Below, piece after piece: positions 3,251-37,820 of a stretch of 64,000 bases of DNA. The translations under genes and the position numbers were made by a program. The stretch comes from Bryobacteraceae bacterium (GTDB taxonomy: Bacteria > Acidobacteriota > Terriglobia > Bryobacterales > Bryobacteraceae): contig BPGE01000001.1 of NCBI GenBank assembly GCA_026002875.1, forward strand, positions 248,001 to 312,000. Reading direction: 5' to 3'. Each line of letters begins with the position of its first letter. Within the stretch, counting starts at the first letter, position 1. The notes below the pieces were generated by a model. That model saw nothing but the letters and a program-made list of their open reading frames with translations, had not been told where the DNA came from and searched no databases.

Positions 3251-4765
3251 TCAGATCTTCGCTTCCGCCAGCTTCGCGCCCGTGGCTTCCTCCACCTCCG
3301 CGTGCAGCGAATTGCCGTGCGCGTCCATGGTGACCACGGCGAGGAAGTCTTCCACCAGCAGGTGCCACATCGCTTCCGGAATGCCGAACTCGAGCAGGTG
3401 CACCCCCAGCACCTTCTTCACCGTGCGCGCATAGAACTGCGCCGCGCCGCCGATGGCGTGCAGATACACCGCGCCGCATTCCTTCAGCCCTTCCGACGTC
3501 TTCTTCCCCATGCCGCCCTTGCCGACCACGGCTTTCACCCCGTAGCGGCGCAGCACCTCGGCCTGATACGGCTCCTCGCGGCTCGACGTCGTCGGCCCCG
3601 CCGCCTTCACCTGCCACGTCTCGCCCATCTTCAGCATCACCGGACCGCAGTGGTACAGAATCGCGCCCTTCAGGCTGACCGGCGGCTCGTGCTTCATCAG
3701 GTAGGCATGCACCGCATCGCGCCCCGTGAACATCTCGCCGCGGATCAGCACCACGTCGCCCACCTTCAGCGCCCGCATCTGCTCCGTGGTCAGCGGCGGC
3801 GTCAGCACGATCTCGCGCCCGGTCAGCGGGAAGCCGCTGTCTTTCGCCAGCTTCTCCACCGGGCGCGACGGATCGCGGTACAGCCACTCCGTGATCGCCC
3901 CGCTCGAGGCGTCCAGCCGCACGCCCAGCCGCCGGAACGCCCAGCAGTCGTAGGCCACCGAGACGAAGAACGACGCCGGCAGCCGGTTCGCCGCACAGAT
4001 CTTGCACCCGATCAGCGCCACGCCTCCCCCCAGGCCCATCGCGCCGATGCCCAGCTTGTTGGCCTCCTCCATGATTTCGGCCTCGAGCTTCGCCAGCACC
4101 GGGTCCGGGTTCACGTCATCCAGCGTCCGCAGCAGCTGCATCTTCGCCAGATGGTAGCCGTGCGCGCGGTCCGATCCGATGCAGACGCCCAGCGCGCCCG
4201 GCGCGCAGCCCTGCCCCTGCGCCTGCCACACGGCGTGCAGGATGCACTTCTTCACGCCCTCCAGGTCGCGGTTGGCCCGGCCCAGCCGCGGCAGCTCGCA
4301 CGGCAGCGAGTACTGGATGTTCTTGTTCTCGCACCCGCCCCCCTTCAGGATCAGCCGGATCTCGATGTCGTCCCGCTCGTGCTGCTCGAAGTGGATCACC
4401 GGCGTCTCCGGTCCGAGGTTGTCGCCCGAGTTCTTCCCCGTGATCGAGTCCACGCTGTTCGGCCGCAGCTTGCCGCGGCGCGTCGCCTCGGCCACCGCTT
4501 CGCGGATCGCCGCCGCGATCTGCATCTGGTTCACCCCCACGGGCGTGTGCACGAAAAACGTCGGCATGCCCGTGTCCTGGCAGATCGGGCCTTCGTCCTC
4601 CTGCGCCATGTCCGTGTTCAGCGCCATGATCGACAGCGCCTGATGCGACTGCGTGCCCGGCTGCTCGCGCTCGAGCGCCAGCCCCATGGCGGCGCGCACG
4701 TCCGGAGGCAGGTTGACCGATGTCTGCGTGATCAGCTCGATGAGACTGTCCCTGAGAAACTGCAT
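3251..4765 (-). CDS. fumA: Fumarate hydratase class I, fused alpha and beta parts
   Basis: Reversible hydration of fumarate to malate in the TCA cycle by an iron-sulfur hydro-lyase in the cytoplasm. The 504-aa product has the alpha part first (ICQDTGMPTFF near residues 61-71, with Cys62 as a likely 4Fe-4S ligand; a GGGCENKN motif; an ALIGCKICAANR motif) and then the beta part (LTGREIVLTPPL, KAAGPTTSSRE, VGKGGMGKKT). Length matches single-chain class I fumarases. The start is set by an AAAGGAG ribosome site 8 nt before ATG 4765; upstream in-frame codons lack this. The related L-tartrate dehydratases cannot be fully excluded. It is the last of a run of minus-strand genes beginning at acpP, with a 65-nt gap from the HlyD-like gene, so it may have its own promoter. 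Confidence 0.93.
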   Translation of the reverse strand: MQFLRDSLIELITQTSVNLPPDVRAAMGLALEREQPGTQSHQALSIMALNTDMAQEDEGPICQDTGMPTFFVHTPVGVNQMQIAAAIREAVAEATRRGKLRPNSVDSITGKNSGDNLGPETPVIHFEQHERDDIEIRLILKGGGCENKNIQYSLPCELPRLGRANRDLEGVKKCILHAVWQAQGQGCAPGALGVCIGSDRAHGYHLAKMQLLRTLDDVNPDPVLAKLEAEIMEEANKLGIGAMGLGGGVALIGCKICAANRLPASFFVSVAYDCWAFRRLGVRLDASSGAITEWLYRDPSRPVEKLAKDSGFPLTGREIVLTPPLTTEQMRALKVGDVVLIRGEMFTGRDAVHAYLMKHEPPVSLKGAILYHCGPVMLKMGETWQVKAAGPTTSSREEPYQAEVLRRYGVKAVVGKGGMGKKTSEGLKECGAVYLHAIGGAAQFYARTVKKVLGVHLLEFGIPEAMWHLLVEDFLAVVTMDAHGNSLHAEVEEATGAKLAEAKI

Positions 4766-34716: not shown

Positions 34717-35634
34717 TCAATTGGGGGCCAACACAAAACTGAAGGTCACGTCGTTGGACCAGACAACGGTGAGAGTGCCGGAGCCGTCGGACAGACGGAC
34801 GACCGAGGCGCCCTGAAGCGTGGCAATGGCGCCGATGGGCGTGAGCACGGGGGCGGGGTTGGATCCCGCCGGAAGGGTGTTGGCGGGGAAGCTGATCACA
34901 TATTGCCCGGTTCCGTTCCGGGTGGCTGTCCAGCCGGCAGGGAGGCTTTGGACGGCGCCGTTGGACTGAATCACGCCGCCGAGAGTCCGGTTGCCGGATG
35001 AAGCCTCGATGTAATAGCCGTTCAGGTCCACGATGAAGTCCACCGGATCGCCGCTCCGCACGTTGATGCCGCCGTTCACGCCTGCGGCAATGATCACGGC
35101 GTTGTTGTACAAACCGGCGCTGGCTCCGTTCAGAAACGAGGTAAAGGGATACGGATATCCATCCGGCCAGGCGGAGAGCCAGGCGAGCGGGCCGTAGCTG
35201 ATGGCGAGGAGGTTGAGAGAGAAAGCCTTGGCCTCGGGCGGAATCACGCAGTTGGGGTGCGACTTCAGAGGAAAGGAGCGAATGACATTCGGCTGCAGCA
35301 TCGGCGGGCCGAACGGGGCGGGGAAGTTCTGGAAGGTCCGGGTGTCCACCAGACGGCAGGGGGTGATTCCCACGAAGACCAGGGGGGCAGTCAGAGGCGT
35401 GACGCTGGACCGGGGGAGGGAATCCGGCTGCGCTCCCAGCTTGCCGGCAGAAGCGGCAGCCACGGCGGCTGCCTCCGAGGGTTGGGAGGGCATCCAGTAA
35501 GTGGGAGCCGGCCAGTTGCGGATCGGGATCTCGATGTCGGCCCGGAAGTCCTGCGCGGATGCATGCGGGAGGCAGATGGCGGCGGCAAGCAGCAGCGCCG
35601 GCGCCAAACGCGGATTCGAGCTCAGGTACCTCAT
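34717..35634 (-). CDS. Secreted protein with PCRLVDTR motif, unknown function
   Basis: 305 aa with a signal peptide (LAPALLLAAAICLPHASAQ). A beta-rich domain starts at ITPCRLVDTR (about residue 90), a motif found in many secreted or surface proteins of soil bacteria and often next to hydrolase domains, and includes SFPLKSHPNCVIPPEAKAF, NNAVIIAAGVNGGINVRSG and DFIVDLNGYYIE. A separate C-terminal beta region of about 80 residues follows. No catalytic residues can be named; a role in adhesion or surface structure is possible. Start at ATG 35634 has only a weak AGG upstream. Confidence 0.7.
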   Translation of the reverse strand: MRYLSSNPRLAPALLLAAAICLPHASAQDFRADIEIPIRNWPAPTYWMPSQPSEAAAVAAASAGKLGAQPDSLPRSSVTPLTAPLVFVGITPCRLVDTRTFQNFPAPFGPPMLQPNVIRSFPLKSHPNCVIPPEAKAFSLNLLAISYGPLAWLSAWPDGYPYPFTSFLNGASAGLYNNAVIIAAGVNGGINVRSGDPVDFIVDLNGYYIEASSGNRTLGGVIQSNGAVQSLPAGWTATRNGTGQYVISFPANTLPAGSNPAPVLTPIGAIATLQGASVVRLSDGSGTLTVVWSNDVTFSFVLAPN

Positions 35635-35781
35635 CCTGCCTGTCCATCGGCAGGCTCTCGGGGGGACCACATAGCCATACCGGGAATCGGGGGATAGGCG
35701 GGTCAGACAGGTCATTCATCATTGCGCCTTTGGGTGGATCGTTGACGCCTGCCGTCCCGAATACAACTGCGGGTGAAGATG

Positions 35782-36850
35782 GGGCGCGGCGGGTTTCGGT
35801 TCGTTGCGCAAAATTGCGGTTTTGGGTTTTTGGGGGGGGGAGTGGTTTCCGGGAGGGGGCACGGGTGGGATGCAGCCCTCGCGCGAGCGCGAGGGGAAAC
35901 CCGAGGAGCTTGCGGCGGACTGGTCGCGCCTGCGGCGCGATGGGGGGTGTTGGAGGGTTGGGGAGGTTGTGTTTGAACCGCTTGGTCGCAGCCCTTCGGG
36001 CTGCTCCCGCGCGGCTCTGTTTGCGCACGAAGGGTTTCGGTTCGTTTCGCAAAATTGCGGTTTTGGGTTTGGGTGGGGGTTGCGGCAGAGTGGTCTCCGG
36101 GAGCGGGCACGGTTGGGATGCAGCCCTCGCGCGAGCGCGAGGGGAAACCCGAGGAGCTTGCGGCGGACTGGTCGCGCCTGCGGCGCGATGGGGGGGTGTT
36201 GGAGGGTGGGGGCGGTGGTGTTTGAACCGCTTGGTCGCAGCCCTTCGGGCTGCTCCCGCGCGGCTCTGTTTGCGCACGAAGGGTTTCGGTTCGTTGCGCA
36301 AAATTGCGGTTTTGGGTTTTTGGGGGGGGAGTGGTTTCCGGGAGGGGGCACGGGTGGGATGCAGCCCTCGCGCGAGCGCGAGGGGAAACCCGAGGAGCTT
36401 GCGGCGGACTGGTCGCGCCTGCGGCGCGATGGGGGGTGTTGGAGGGTTGGGGAGGTTGTGTTTGAACCGCTTGGTCGCAGCCCTTCGGGCTGCTCCCGCG
36501 CGGCTCTGTTTGGGCGCGGCGGGTTTCGGTTCGTTTCGCAAAATTGCGGTTTTGGGTTTTTGGGGGGGGAGTGGTTTCCGGGAGGGGGCACGGGTGGGAT
36601 GCAGCCCTCGCGCGAGCGCGAGGGGAAACCCGAGGAGCTTGCGGCGGACTGGTCGCGCCTGCGGCGCGATGGGGGGTGTTGGAGGGTGGGGGCGGTGGTG
36701 TTTTAACCGCTTGGTCGCAGCCCTTCGGGCTGCTCCCGCGCGGCTCTGTTTGGGCGCGGCGGGTTTCGGTTCGTTTCGCAAAATTGCGGTTTTGGGTTTG
36801 GGTGGGAGCGGGCACGGGTGGGATGCAGCCGCCGCCCAAGGGCGGCGGGA
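35782..36850. repeat. G-rich tandem repeat array, 4 full and 1 partial copy of about 240 bp
   Basis: The phrase GGGTTTCGGTTCG recurs at 35791, 36032, 36281, 36521 and 36761, giving periods of 241, 249, 240 and 240 bp. Each copy has, in order, a small CGCAA-AA-TTGCG hairpin, a G-run tract able to form a G-quadruplex (for example GGGTTTGGGTGGGGG), a 9-bp hairpin between GCAG and GAAACCCG, and the hairpin GCAGCCC-TTC-GGGCTGC (35988, 36237, 36477, 36717). The fifth copy stops after the main hairpin. Long open frames cross the array in several frames but periods not divisible by three argue against coding. Too long a period for a CRISPR. Confidence 0.9.
36829..36848. other. Variant main hairpin of the fifth repeat, stem sequence replaced
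   Basis: Copy 1 has CCCTCGCGC-GA-GCGCGAGGG (35876-35895). Copy 5 at the same place has CCGCCGCCC-AA-GGGCGGCGG, again a perfect 9-bp stem with a 2-nt centre, while the flanks GCAG and GAAACCCG are unchanged. Pairing is kept although most stem positions differ. Confidence 0.75.
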
Positions 36851-36884
36851 AACCCGTGGGCGGAGGCGGGCGGGGCCGGGGCCG

Positions 36885-36890
36885 TACAAT
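36885..36890 (+). promoter_or_regulatory. -10 box (TACAAT), leaderless, DsbA-like gene
   Basis: TACAAT ends 6 nt before ATG 36897, 35 nt after the end of the repeat array. The G-rich end of the array takes the place of a normal -35 region. Confidence 0.55.
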
Positions 36891-36896
36891 GAAGAA

Positions 36897-37820
36897 ATGA
36901 GGCGGTTGATTTCATGGCTGGCGGCTGCGGCGGCGGCCGAGGCTGTCGCCTTTGCGCTGGCGCAGGCGCCAGCGCCCCGGATCGACAAGGCCCGGCTGGA
37001 GAGCTTCATCCGGCATCTGATGCTGTGGGGGCCGCAGATCGAAGTGACGCTTTCCGATCCGCGGCCGTCGGGCGTGGATGGCCTGTACGAGCTGCAGGTG
37101 ACGGGGCGGTATCAGCAGGCGAGCGTGGAAGAACTGTTCTACGTCAGCGGCGATGGCCGGCACGTGCTGCGGGGATCGCTGTTCCGGGCGGATCAGGCGC
37201 CTTATGCTGCGGACGCGGCGAAGATCCGCACGGAAGGGCATCCGGCGATGGGCGCGAAGAATCCGAAAGACGCGCTGCTGCAGCTTGTGGTGTTCAGCGA
37301 TTTCCAGTGCGGTTTCTGCCGCGAGGAGGCGCGGTCGCTGCGGGAGAATCTGCCCAAGGCGTATCCGGGGCAGTTCCGGCTGGTGTTCCGGGACCTGCCG
37401 ATCGAGCAGATCCATCCGTGGGCCAAGCCTGCGGCGGTGGCGGGGCGCTGCGCCTTCCGGCAGAGCGAGGATCTGTTCTGGAAATATCACGACTGGATTT
37501 TTGAAAAACAGGCGGAAATCAAGCCGGACAATTTCCGCATCAAAGCCCTGGAGTGGCTGAAATCGGCCGGCGGCGACGAGAAGGCGTTCACGGCGTGCCT
37601 GGACGATCCGGAAGCGGCGGCGGAGGTGGCGCGGAGCGTCGCCGAAGCCCGGCAGCTGCGGATTCAGTCGACGCCGACGCTGTTCGTCAACGGGCGGGCG
37701 CTCGCCGGGAACGTTCCCTGGCCGCAGCTGAAGCCGATTCTCGACCTGGAGCTGGAATTCGCGAAGAAGTCCGCCGGTGCGGACTGCTGCTCGCTGACGC
37801 TGCCGGTTCCCGGCAAATAG
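36897..37820 (+). CDS. DsbA-like periplasmic thiol-disulfide oxidoreductase
   Basis: 307 aa with a signal peptide (LISWLAAAAAAEAVAFALAQ). A preliminary alpha/beta region (30-110) precedes a DsbA-type thioredoxin fold: FSDFQCGFCREEA with Cys138 and Cys141, a helical insert, and the cis-Pro loop STPTLFVNGRAL. The resemblance to the thioredoxin_4/DSBA group that also includes disulfide isomerases is clear, but oxidase versus isomerase activity cannot be told. The M28 peptidase gene starts 18 nt downstream and is probably co-transcribed. Confidence 0.87.
   Translation: MRRLISWLAAAAAAEAVAFALAQAPAPRIDKARLESFIRHLMLWGPQIEVTLSDPRPSGVDGLYELQVTGRYQQASVEELFYVSGDGRHVLRGSLFRADQAPYAADAAKIRTEGHPAMGAKNPKDALLQLVVFSDFQCGFCREEARSLRENLPKAYPGQFRLVFRDLPIEQIHPWAKPAAVAGRCAFRQSEDLFWKYHDWIFEKQAEIKPDNFRIKALEWLKSAGGDEKAFTACLDDPEAAAEVARSVAEARQLRIQSTPTLFVNGRALAGNVPWPQLKPILDLELEFAKKSAGADCCSLTLPVPGK

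Follow-up and report, generated by a model that had tools for sequence, protein, structure and literature searches.

In E. coli and Pseudomonas, the repetitive extragenic palindromes (REPs) of the canonical REP/BIME/REPIN systems with their RAYT are GC-rich, each RAYT has cognate REPs, stem changes preserve pairing, REP number tracks the presence of the RAYT and the clusters are mosaic (PMC2817692, PMC3116915). Their foot is GTAG or GTGG, and the founding description of the RAYT places inverted REPs on its flanks (PMC2817692). Ordered tandem arrays in which two REP families are mixed in one orientation have been described in P. fluorescens SBW25 (GI-GIII), where they are a minority beside REPINs (PMC3116915), and insertion sequences that target REPs have been reported as well (PMC1525189). 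A further group, the class 3 TnpA-Y1 transposases, is defined by the motifs NHVH, W[TA] and YV[VI][AENY]EQ (Y----Q) and by CnGA feet; it is found in Acidobacteria, its genes are flanked by several high-copy hairpins, and Solibacter usitatus carries about 600 class 3 hairpins (PMC6006769). Class 3 REP systems have been described briefly, in one paragraph and a table row of that paper, and its Class 3 section states no layout. RepRanger names three Acidobacteriota (PMC12306157).

Here, we describe a repeat array within a 64,000-nucleotide stretch of a Bryobacteraceae genome (the window). The array is very probably a local cluster of REP-type elements, whose hairpin and foot would be recognised by a small HUH-tyrosine transposase (RAYT/TnpA-REP) of class 3 as defined in PMC6006769. 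It is a well-formed case of a REP class on which little has been written, and its layout is unusual. Searches of the main texts of open-licence papers listed none that deals with such repeats in the genus. To our knowledge, none of the three Acidobacteriota named by RepRanger belongs to the Bryobacteraceae.

Tandem repeat analysis (TRF) identified a single array at 35782-36799 with a period of 240, 4.2 copies and 93% matches, to which a truncated fifth copy adds sequence up to about 36859 (Table 1). This agrees with the five tandem copies of an approximately 240-bp unit described in the first-pass annotation. The 240-bp unit consists of a hairpin module, A, joined to modules B and C and to a linker, D. 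The module A hairpin reads CCCTCGCGC-GA-GCGCGAGGG in copies 1 to 4 and CCGCCGCCC-AA-GGGCGGCGG in copy 5, within identical flanks. Pairs 3, 4 and 8 of the 9 distinguish the two stems, all of them still paired; the stem-preserving change noted earlier for the last copy is real. Each full unit also contains the two further hairpins reported at first reading: module B (TCGCGCC-TGC-GGCGCGA), seemingly a shorter relative of C, and module C itself (GCTTGGTC-[GCAGCCC-TTC-GGGCTGC]-TCCCGCGCGG). The flanking genes were likewise those described: on the minus strand, a gene whose protein matched no Pfam family at E up to 1, and on the other side a DsbA/thioredoxin-like gene, whose nearest named record comes from an uncultured Bryobacteraceae genome (76% identity).

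Table 1 Positions of the array, its hairpin modules and the neighbouring genes in the window
Feature	Position	Strand	Remarks
Array, a mosaic of REP-type hairpins (modules A, B and C) and linker module D	35782..36859	+	4 full ~240-bp units and a truncated fifth
Module A stem-loop, copy 1	35876..35895	+	stem type CCCTCGCGC, loop GA
Module A stem-loop, copy 2	36124..36143	+	stem type CCCTCGCGC
Module A stem-loop, copy 3	36365..36384	+	stem type CCCTCGCGC
Module A stem-loop, copy 4	36605..36624	+	stem type CCCTCGCGC
Module A stem-loop, copy 5	36829..36848	+	stem type CCGCCGCCC, loop AA, flanks as copies 1-4
Module B stem-loop TCGCGCC-TGC-GGCGCGA	35924..35940, 36172-36188, 36413-36429, 36653-36669	+	
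Module C, copy 1	35980..36014	+	pattern match
Module C, copy 2	36229..36263	+	pattern match
Module C, copy 3	36469..36503	+	pattern match; fold computed
Module C, copy 4	36709..36743	+	pattern match
Flanking gene, protein without Pfam match (E up to 1)	34717..35715	-	place conserved in L049 and L050
Flanking DsbA/thioredoxin-like gene	36897..37820	+	

When the array stretch was used as a query against its own 4.86-Mb single-contig genome (G000), 272 BLAST matches were returned, which excludes a chance origin. Strict patterns detected 429 copies of module A and 53 of module C in this genome, with a count of 0 for the reversed-pattern control. Thirty-eight stretches were examined: 36 around regions among the matches listed, including that of the window, and 2 around Y1_Tnp genes. 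The array is one cluster of a dispersed REP family and not a unique ncRNA. The first-pass annotation correctly took the unit for a repeated non-coding element, although its statement that the unit matches no known family did not hold, since this is a REP-type element tied to HUH-tyrosine transposases. Module A comprises CAC(G/A)G(T/G)TGGGATGCAG, followed by a 9-bp stem whose loop has 2 bases, and by GAAACCCG with about 12 further bases. In 39 clusters, the first and last copies retain this whole sequence, beyond which similarity is lost. Elsewhere in the genome module A repeats alone; spacing is 61-65 in 151 of 222 neighbour pairs, and array periods vary (e.g. 39, 50, 60-66, 86, 254). Folded as single-stranded DNA, A and C each have an internal loop between an inner and an outer stem. 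Fold energy z-scores were modest for A, at -1.2 and -1.8 on its two strands and -2.4 in copy 5. C scored more strongly, with -3.5 and -3.0, and the value of -0.8 obtained for B was unremarkable. In the 38 loci, 330 of the 337 A and C copies lie outside the genes predicted by a home-made gene caller. A and C are GC-rich, many-copy and mostly extragenic palindromes, as in the canonical systems.

To assess pairing, copies were picked by their flanks alone with a fixed 20-base centre (n = 276 in the examined loci). All nine Watson-Crick pairs were present in 235 of the 276; over 1000 shuffles of the 3' arms the mean was 108, and no shuffle exceeded 124. Seven copies with fewer than 6 pairs were dropped as chance matches, leaving 269 for the later counts. 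Over 37 distinct stems the paired fraction was 0.889 and fell to 0.529 or less when the arms were slid by 1-3 bases. Pairs 3, 4, 7 and 8 of the 9 occur as two or three Watson-Crick types in many copies, and pair 9 varies in this way in one. Compared with the commonest stem, 191 cells had changed on both sides and remained paired and 45 had changed otherwise, counts that do not represent independent events because the copies are paralogues of a few lineages in one genome. The stem-preserving change is genuine and genome-wide. It had been proposed from the window that structure is preserved and that a lack of covariation in copies elsewhere would speak against this; the flank-selected copies do carry two-sided changes, and pairing that survives stem changes is a property shared with canonical REPs.

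Four perfect stem types are common to the same flanks. Stem types might be exchanged as cassettes, through recombination between copies or through template switching with one arm as the template for the other, and these four types argue for it, as do mixed-arm stems: among the imperfect stems, two combine arms of different main types and several are part-mixtures. The cassette-like exchange suggested by the first-pass annotation is to this extent upheld. Imperfect stems amount to just 34 of the 269 structured copies, however, and foot and stem are linked (CCCTCGGCC with CGGA in 28 of 41 copies, CCATCGCGC with CGGG in 18 of 18), which suggests old lineages more than frequent exchange. We give cassette exchange a substantial but less than even chance; it is compatible with a RAYT-recognised REP family, and the two need not compete.

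The foot of this family differs from the GTAG/GTGG foot of canonical REPs. At a fixed position, module A has CGGG in 186 of 269 copies and CGGA in 66 (CnGA in 67 in total), and module C has the CnGA-type foot CAGA, adjoining it on the minus strand, in 4/4 window copies. The CnGA foot of class 3 is shared by window module C and by a further hairpin family, E, described below, whereas module A departs from it in mostly carrying CGGG (PMC6006769). The A copies next downstream of the RAYT-A gene (n = 3) have a CnGA foot.

Genes for HUH-tyrosine (Y1) transposases are flanked by the same palindromes. RAYT-A (genome position 2167718; L048) encodes 149 aa with a Y1_Tnp score of 28.1 bits (cut-off 23) and has A hairpins on both sides. 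RAYT-B (2182121; L030) encodes 180 aa, scores 18.5 bits, below the Pfam cut-off of 23, and has B and C hairpins on both sides. A third RAYT locus (L103 1501-2004, minus strand; 800878-801381) contains one in-frame TGA and lies among the hairpins of family E (921-2144), which are direct, have the foot CAGA and show two different stems in one flank set. Both RAYT-A and RAYT-B contain the HUH motif THVH, which differs from the class 3 motif NHVH in its first residue. The tyrosine motif is YVIEEQ in RAYT-B and YVVEKQ in RAYT-A, the latter fitting Y----Q with K for E. These motifs agree with class 3, and a set of 14 sequences (RAYT-A, RAYT-B, the gene of the congener G004 and eleven others) all contain [TNS]HVH and Y----QG, with YV in 13 of 14 and YL in L090. 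PDB sequence searches with RAYT-A and RAYT-B gave unrelated weak matches only. The system shares with class 3 its Y----Q and HUH motifs, its occurrence in Acidobacteria and genes flanked by several high-copy hairpins; it differs in that a separate hairpin family accompanies each of its three gene loci (PMC6006769). Around all three loci the hairpins are in direct orientation, 14-base matches at L103 excepted, and not inverted as the founding RAYT description has them (PMC2817692). In other genera the hairpins flanking RAYT genes are inverted in several cases and direct in others. A third Y1_Tnp gene of the same genome encodes a more typical REP-associated tyrosine transposase (L009 1432-2157; 242 aa, REP_Tyr_transpos 78.6 bits, cut-off 80).

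We hypothesize that the elements, short DNA hairpins that share a conserved foot, would be recognised by a RAYT in single-stranded DNA, and that the RAYT would have dispersed such hairpins to many intergenic sites. The flanks would hold the common recognition sequence. Recognition would need a paired stem, and stem changes would be kept mainly when both arms agree. Movement by the RAYT and pairing kept for its recognition are proposals from sequence comparison; neither an RNA product nor a benefit to the host would be required.

The distribution of the hairpins was followed in 61 genomes, the search in related genomes proposed at the first reading, and it located A and C copies beyond the window. 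The A pattern gave 429 copies in G000, 4 in G004 and 1 each in G033 and G029, the G029 match having no stem by eye; the C pattern gave 53 copies in G000, 57 in G004 and 0 in the other 59. A RAYT-B relative (E up to 0.001) was present in 17 of 61 genomes, including G004 (75% identity) and excluding G001-G003. Among the five genomes of the genus, C is present in both species that have a RAYT-B-type gene, and neither the A nor the C strict pattern was found in the three congeners without the gene. C thus occurs in 2/2 genomes with a close RAYT-B relative and in 0/59 others, and RAYT presence tracks REP abundance as in the canonical systems, with exceptions. The best match of RAYT-A in the other 60 genomes had 38% identity; with no close relative of this gene outside G000, G004 offers no evident cognate for its four A copies. 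The 240-bp unit gave weak BLAST matches in G002 (1), G003 (2), G033 (1) and G047 (1), those of G002 and G003 lying in linker D. In another genus, G033 has a single exact A hairpin with a perfect GGCC-type stem (G033:C92:4588-4624; L059) and no RAYT relative, which may represent a transfer or a remnant.

A consensus hairpin drawn from the RAYT flanks of other genera was detected in 25 of 61 genomes, all of them outside this genus, whose five genomes lacked it. Outside the genus, it occurred in 15/15 RAYT-positive and 10/41 RAYT-negative genomes (Fisher 2e-7), an association that is partly built in because the consensus came partly from these flanks, which does not apply to the copy numbers of up to 243; two of the 15 positive genomes (G018, G034) rest on gene fragments. 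Three of the ten RAYT-negative genomes (G015, G021 and G030) have 13, 100 and 27 consensus hairpins without a detected RAYT relative, the gene having been lost or missed. With nine RAYT-B matches and just 10 consensus hairpins, G053 appears more insertion-sequence-like than a REP system. Several observations count against the RAYT-based reading: the prevalence of CGGG at the A foot, the RAYT-B score under the Pfam cut-off, the direct REPs around the RAYT genes, the A copies of G004, the consensus hairpin in ten RAYT-negative genomes and the weak matches to the unit in the RAYT-less congeners G002 and G003.

In two relatives (L049 and L050), both genes that flank the window array are present in order, with DNA identity of about 80% on the DsbA side and about 70% on the other. 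blastn found nothing of the array at this orthologous site, where a short intergenic stretch stands instead. The L050 record is titled Arcobacter, a label that is probably wrong given its synteny with the window and a DsbA orthologue of 75% identity.

The copies are arranged head-to-tail. All 285 neighbour pairs (<400 bp apart) among the 337 A and C copies in the 38 loci point in the same direction, and so do 26/26 C neighbours in G004. The 0/285 inverted neighbours set this genome apart from the canonical REP/RAYT systems (PMC2817692, PMC3116915). Among the matches listed for other genera, consensus-hairpin neighbours were opposite in 10/10 cases in G019, and 5 were opposite and 1 the same in G007. 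The SBW25 GI-GIII arrays are similarly ordered, with two REP families in one orientation, but what is a minority layout beside REPINs there is the sole layout in the loci examined here (PMC3116915).

An unrelated transposon at the hairpins gave evidence of how arrays grow. Twelve ends like GGGTCTGTGAAAAAAT (one mismatch allowed) were found in the genome, and by eye the outer flank of all 12 is half of an A-like hairpin, at or beside its loop. Three of the ends belong to a long element: two to the copy at 2165824-2167547, which holds a DDE transposase (DDE_Tnp_1_6/DUF772), and one at 1587078; the remaining nine are from a short relative of this element. The element and its short relative are located at L048 ~325-2047 and L011 ~4589-4745. 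A transposon with all found ends in REPs recalls the insertion sequences that target REPs, from which it differs by its DDE_Tnp_1_6/DUF772 transposase and by its ends at the apex of A-like hairpins (PMC1525189). This choice of the apex suggests that the palindrome or its extruded form is recognised. Three short copies in a single array, spaced by 305 and 303 bp, were co-amplified with their surroundings. This shows that at least one cluster grew by duplication of a whole block, a form shared by the 240-bp A-B-C-D unit.

Such growth raises the question of a passive satellite, produced from a chance hairpin by slippage or unequal crossing-over alone, with no transposase. The block duplication with its co-amplified transposon, the variable periods and the 5' arm common to adjacent copies in 137 of 222 pairs (41% expected) are in line with it. 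Amplification of this kind accounts for growth in place and not for dispersal to 36 separate regions (among the matches listed), and it leaves the tie to RAYT genes across genomes unexplained; we consider it unlikely as the whole explanation. Within the RAYT-based reading, we speculate that the layout rule changed in this genus, from REPINs (mobile inverted doublets) to head-to-tail hairpin satellites whose growth would be aided by strand transfer beside an existing foot, with interchangeable stems in fixed flanks. We regard this proposal as rather unlikely. A single-contig genome that offers gene loci, neighbouring hairpins, stem variants and an empty orthologous site, together with other genera in which hairpins are inverted, makes two questions testable: how a RAYT recognises a hairpin of variable stem sequence, and how inverted REP doublets give way to tandem arrays.

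The first-pass annotation saw in the preserved structure a sign of selection on RNA or on cruciform DNA, or of cassette-like exchange. Preservation itself was confirmed, and the element is most likely a DNA rather than an RNA element. Were the hairpins to act in transcripts, as an sRNA, a terminator or an mRNA stabiliser, selection on RNA could explain the conserved stem pairing with its two-sided changes, and REPs of other bacteria are reported to affect transcripts (PMC6006769). No Rfam covariance model matched, whether at its gathering score or with E relaxed to 1, and an Rfam ncRNA was rejected. A terminator array was rejected too, terminator-like sites being at chance level (3 against 2.9 expected). 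The clusters occur in all gene contexts with no consistent orientation to genes: of 40 clusters, 25 have co-directional neighbours (12 in one direction, 13 in the other), 11 have convergent and 4 divergent ones, as counted with the home-made gene caller, which missed the DsbA gene of the window owing to an overlapping open frame. The transposon and the RAYT genes moreover tie the hairpin to DNA processing, and we regard a structured RNA as very unlikely. That the array encodes a repetitive protein is scarcely credible and was rejected: long frames are open through it (e.g. 35559-37820), but they run in several frames on both strands, showing merely that a G-rich repeat has few stop codons, the array is absent from the orthologous site in two relatives, and nearly all A and C copies in the examined loci are outside predicted genes.

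A and C copies can also be compared at what by eye is seemingly the same gene end in two species of the genus (L037 1642-2313 and L070 ~1400-1700), where G000 has an A array and G004 has C copies and one A-like hairpin.
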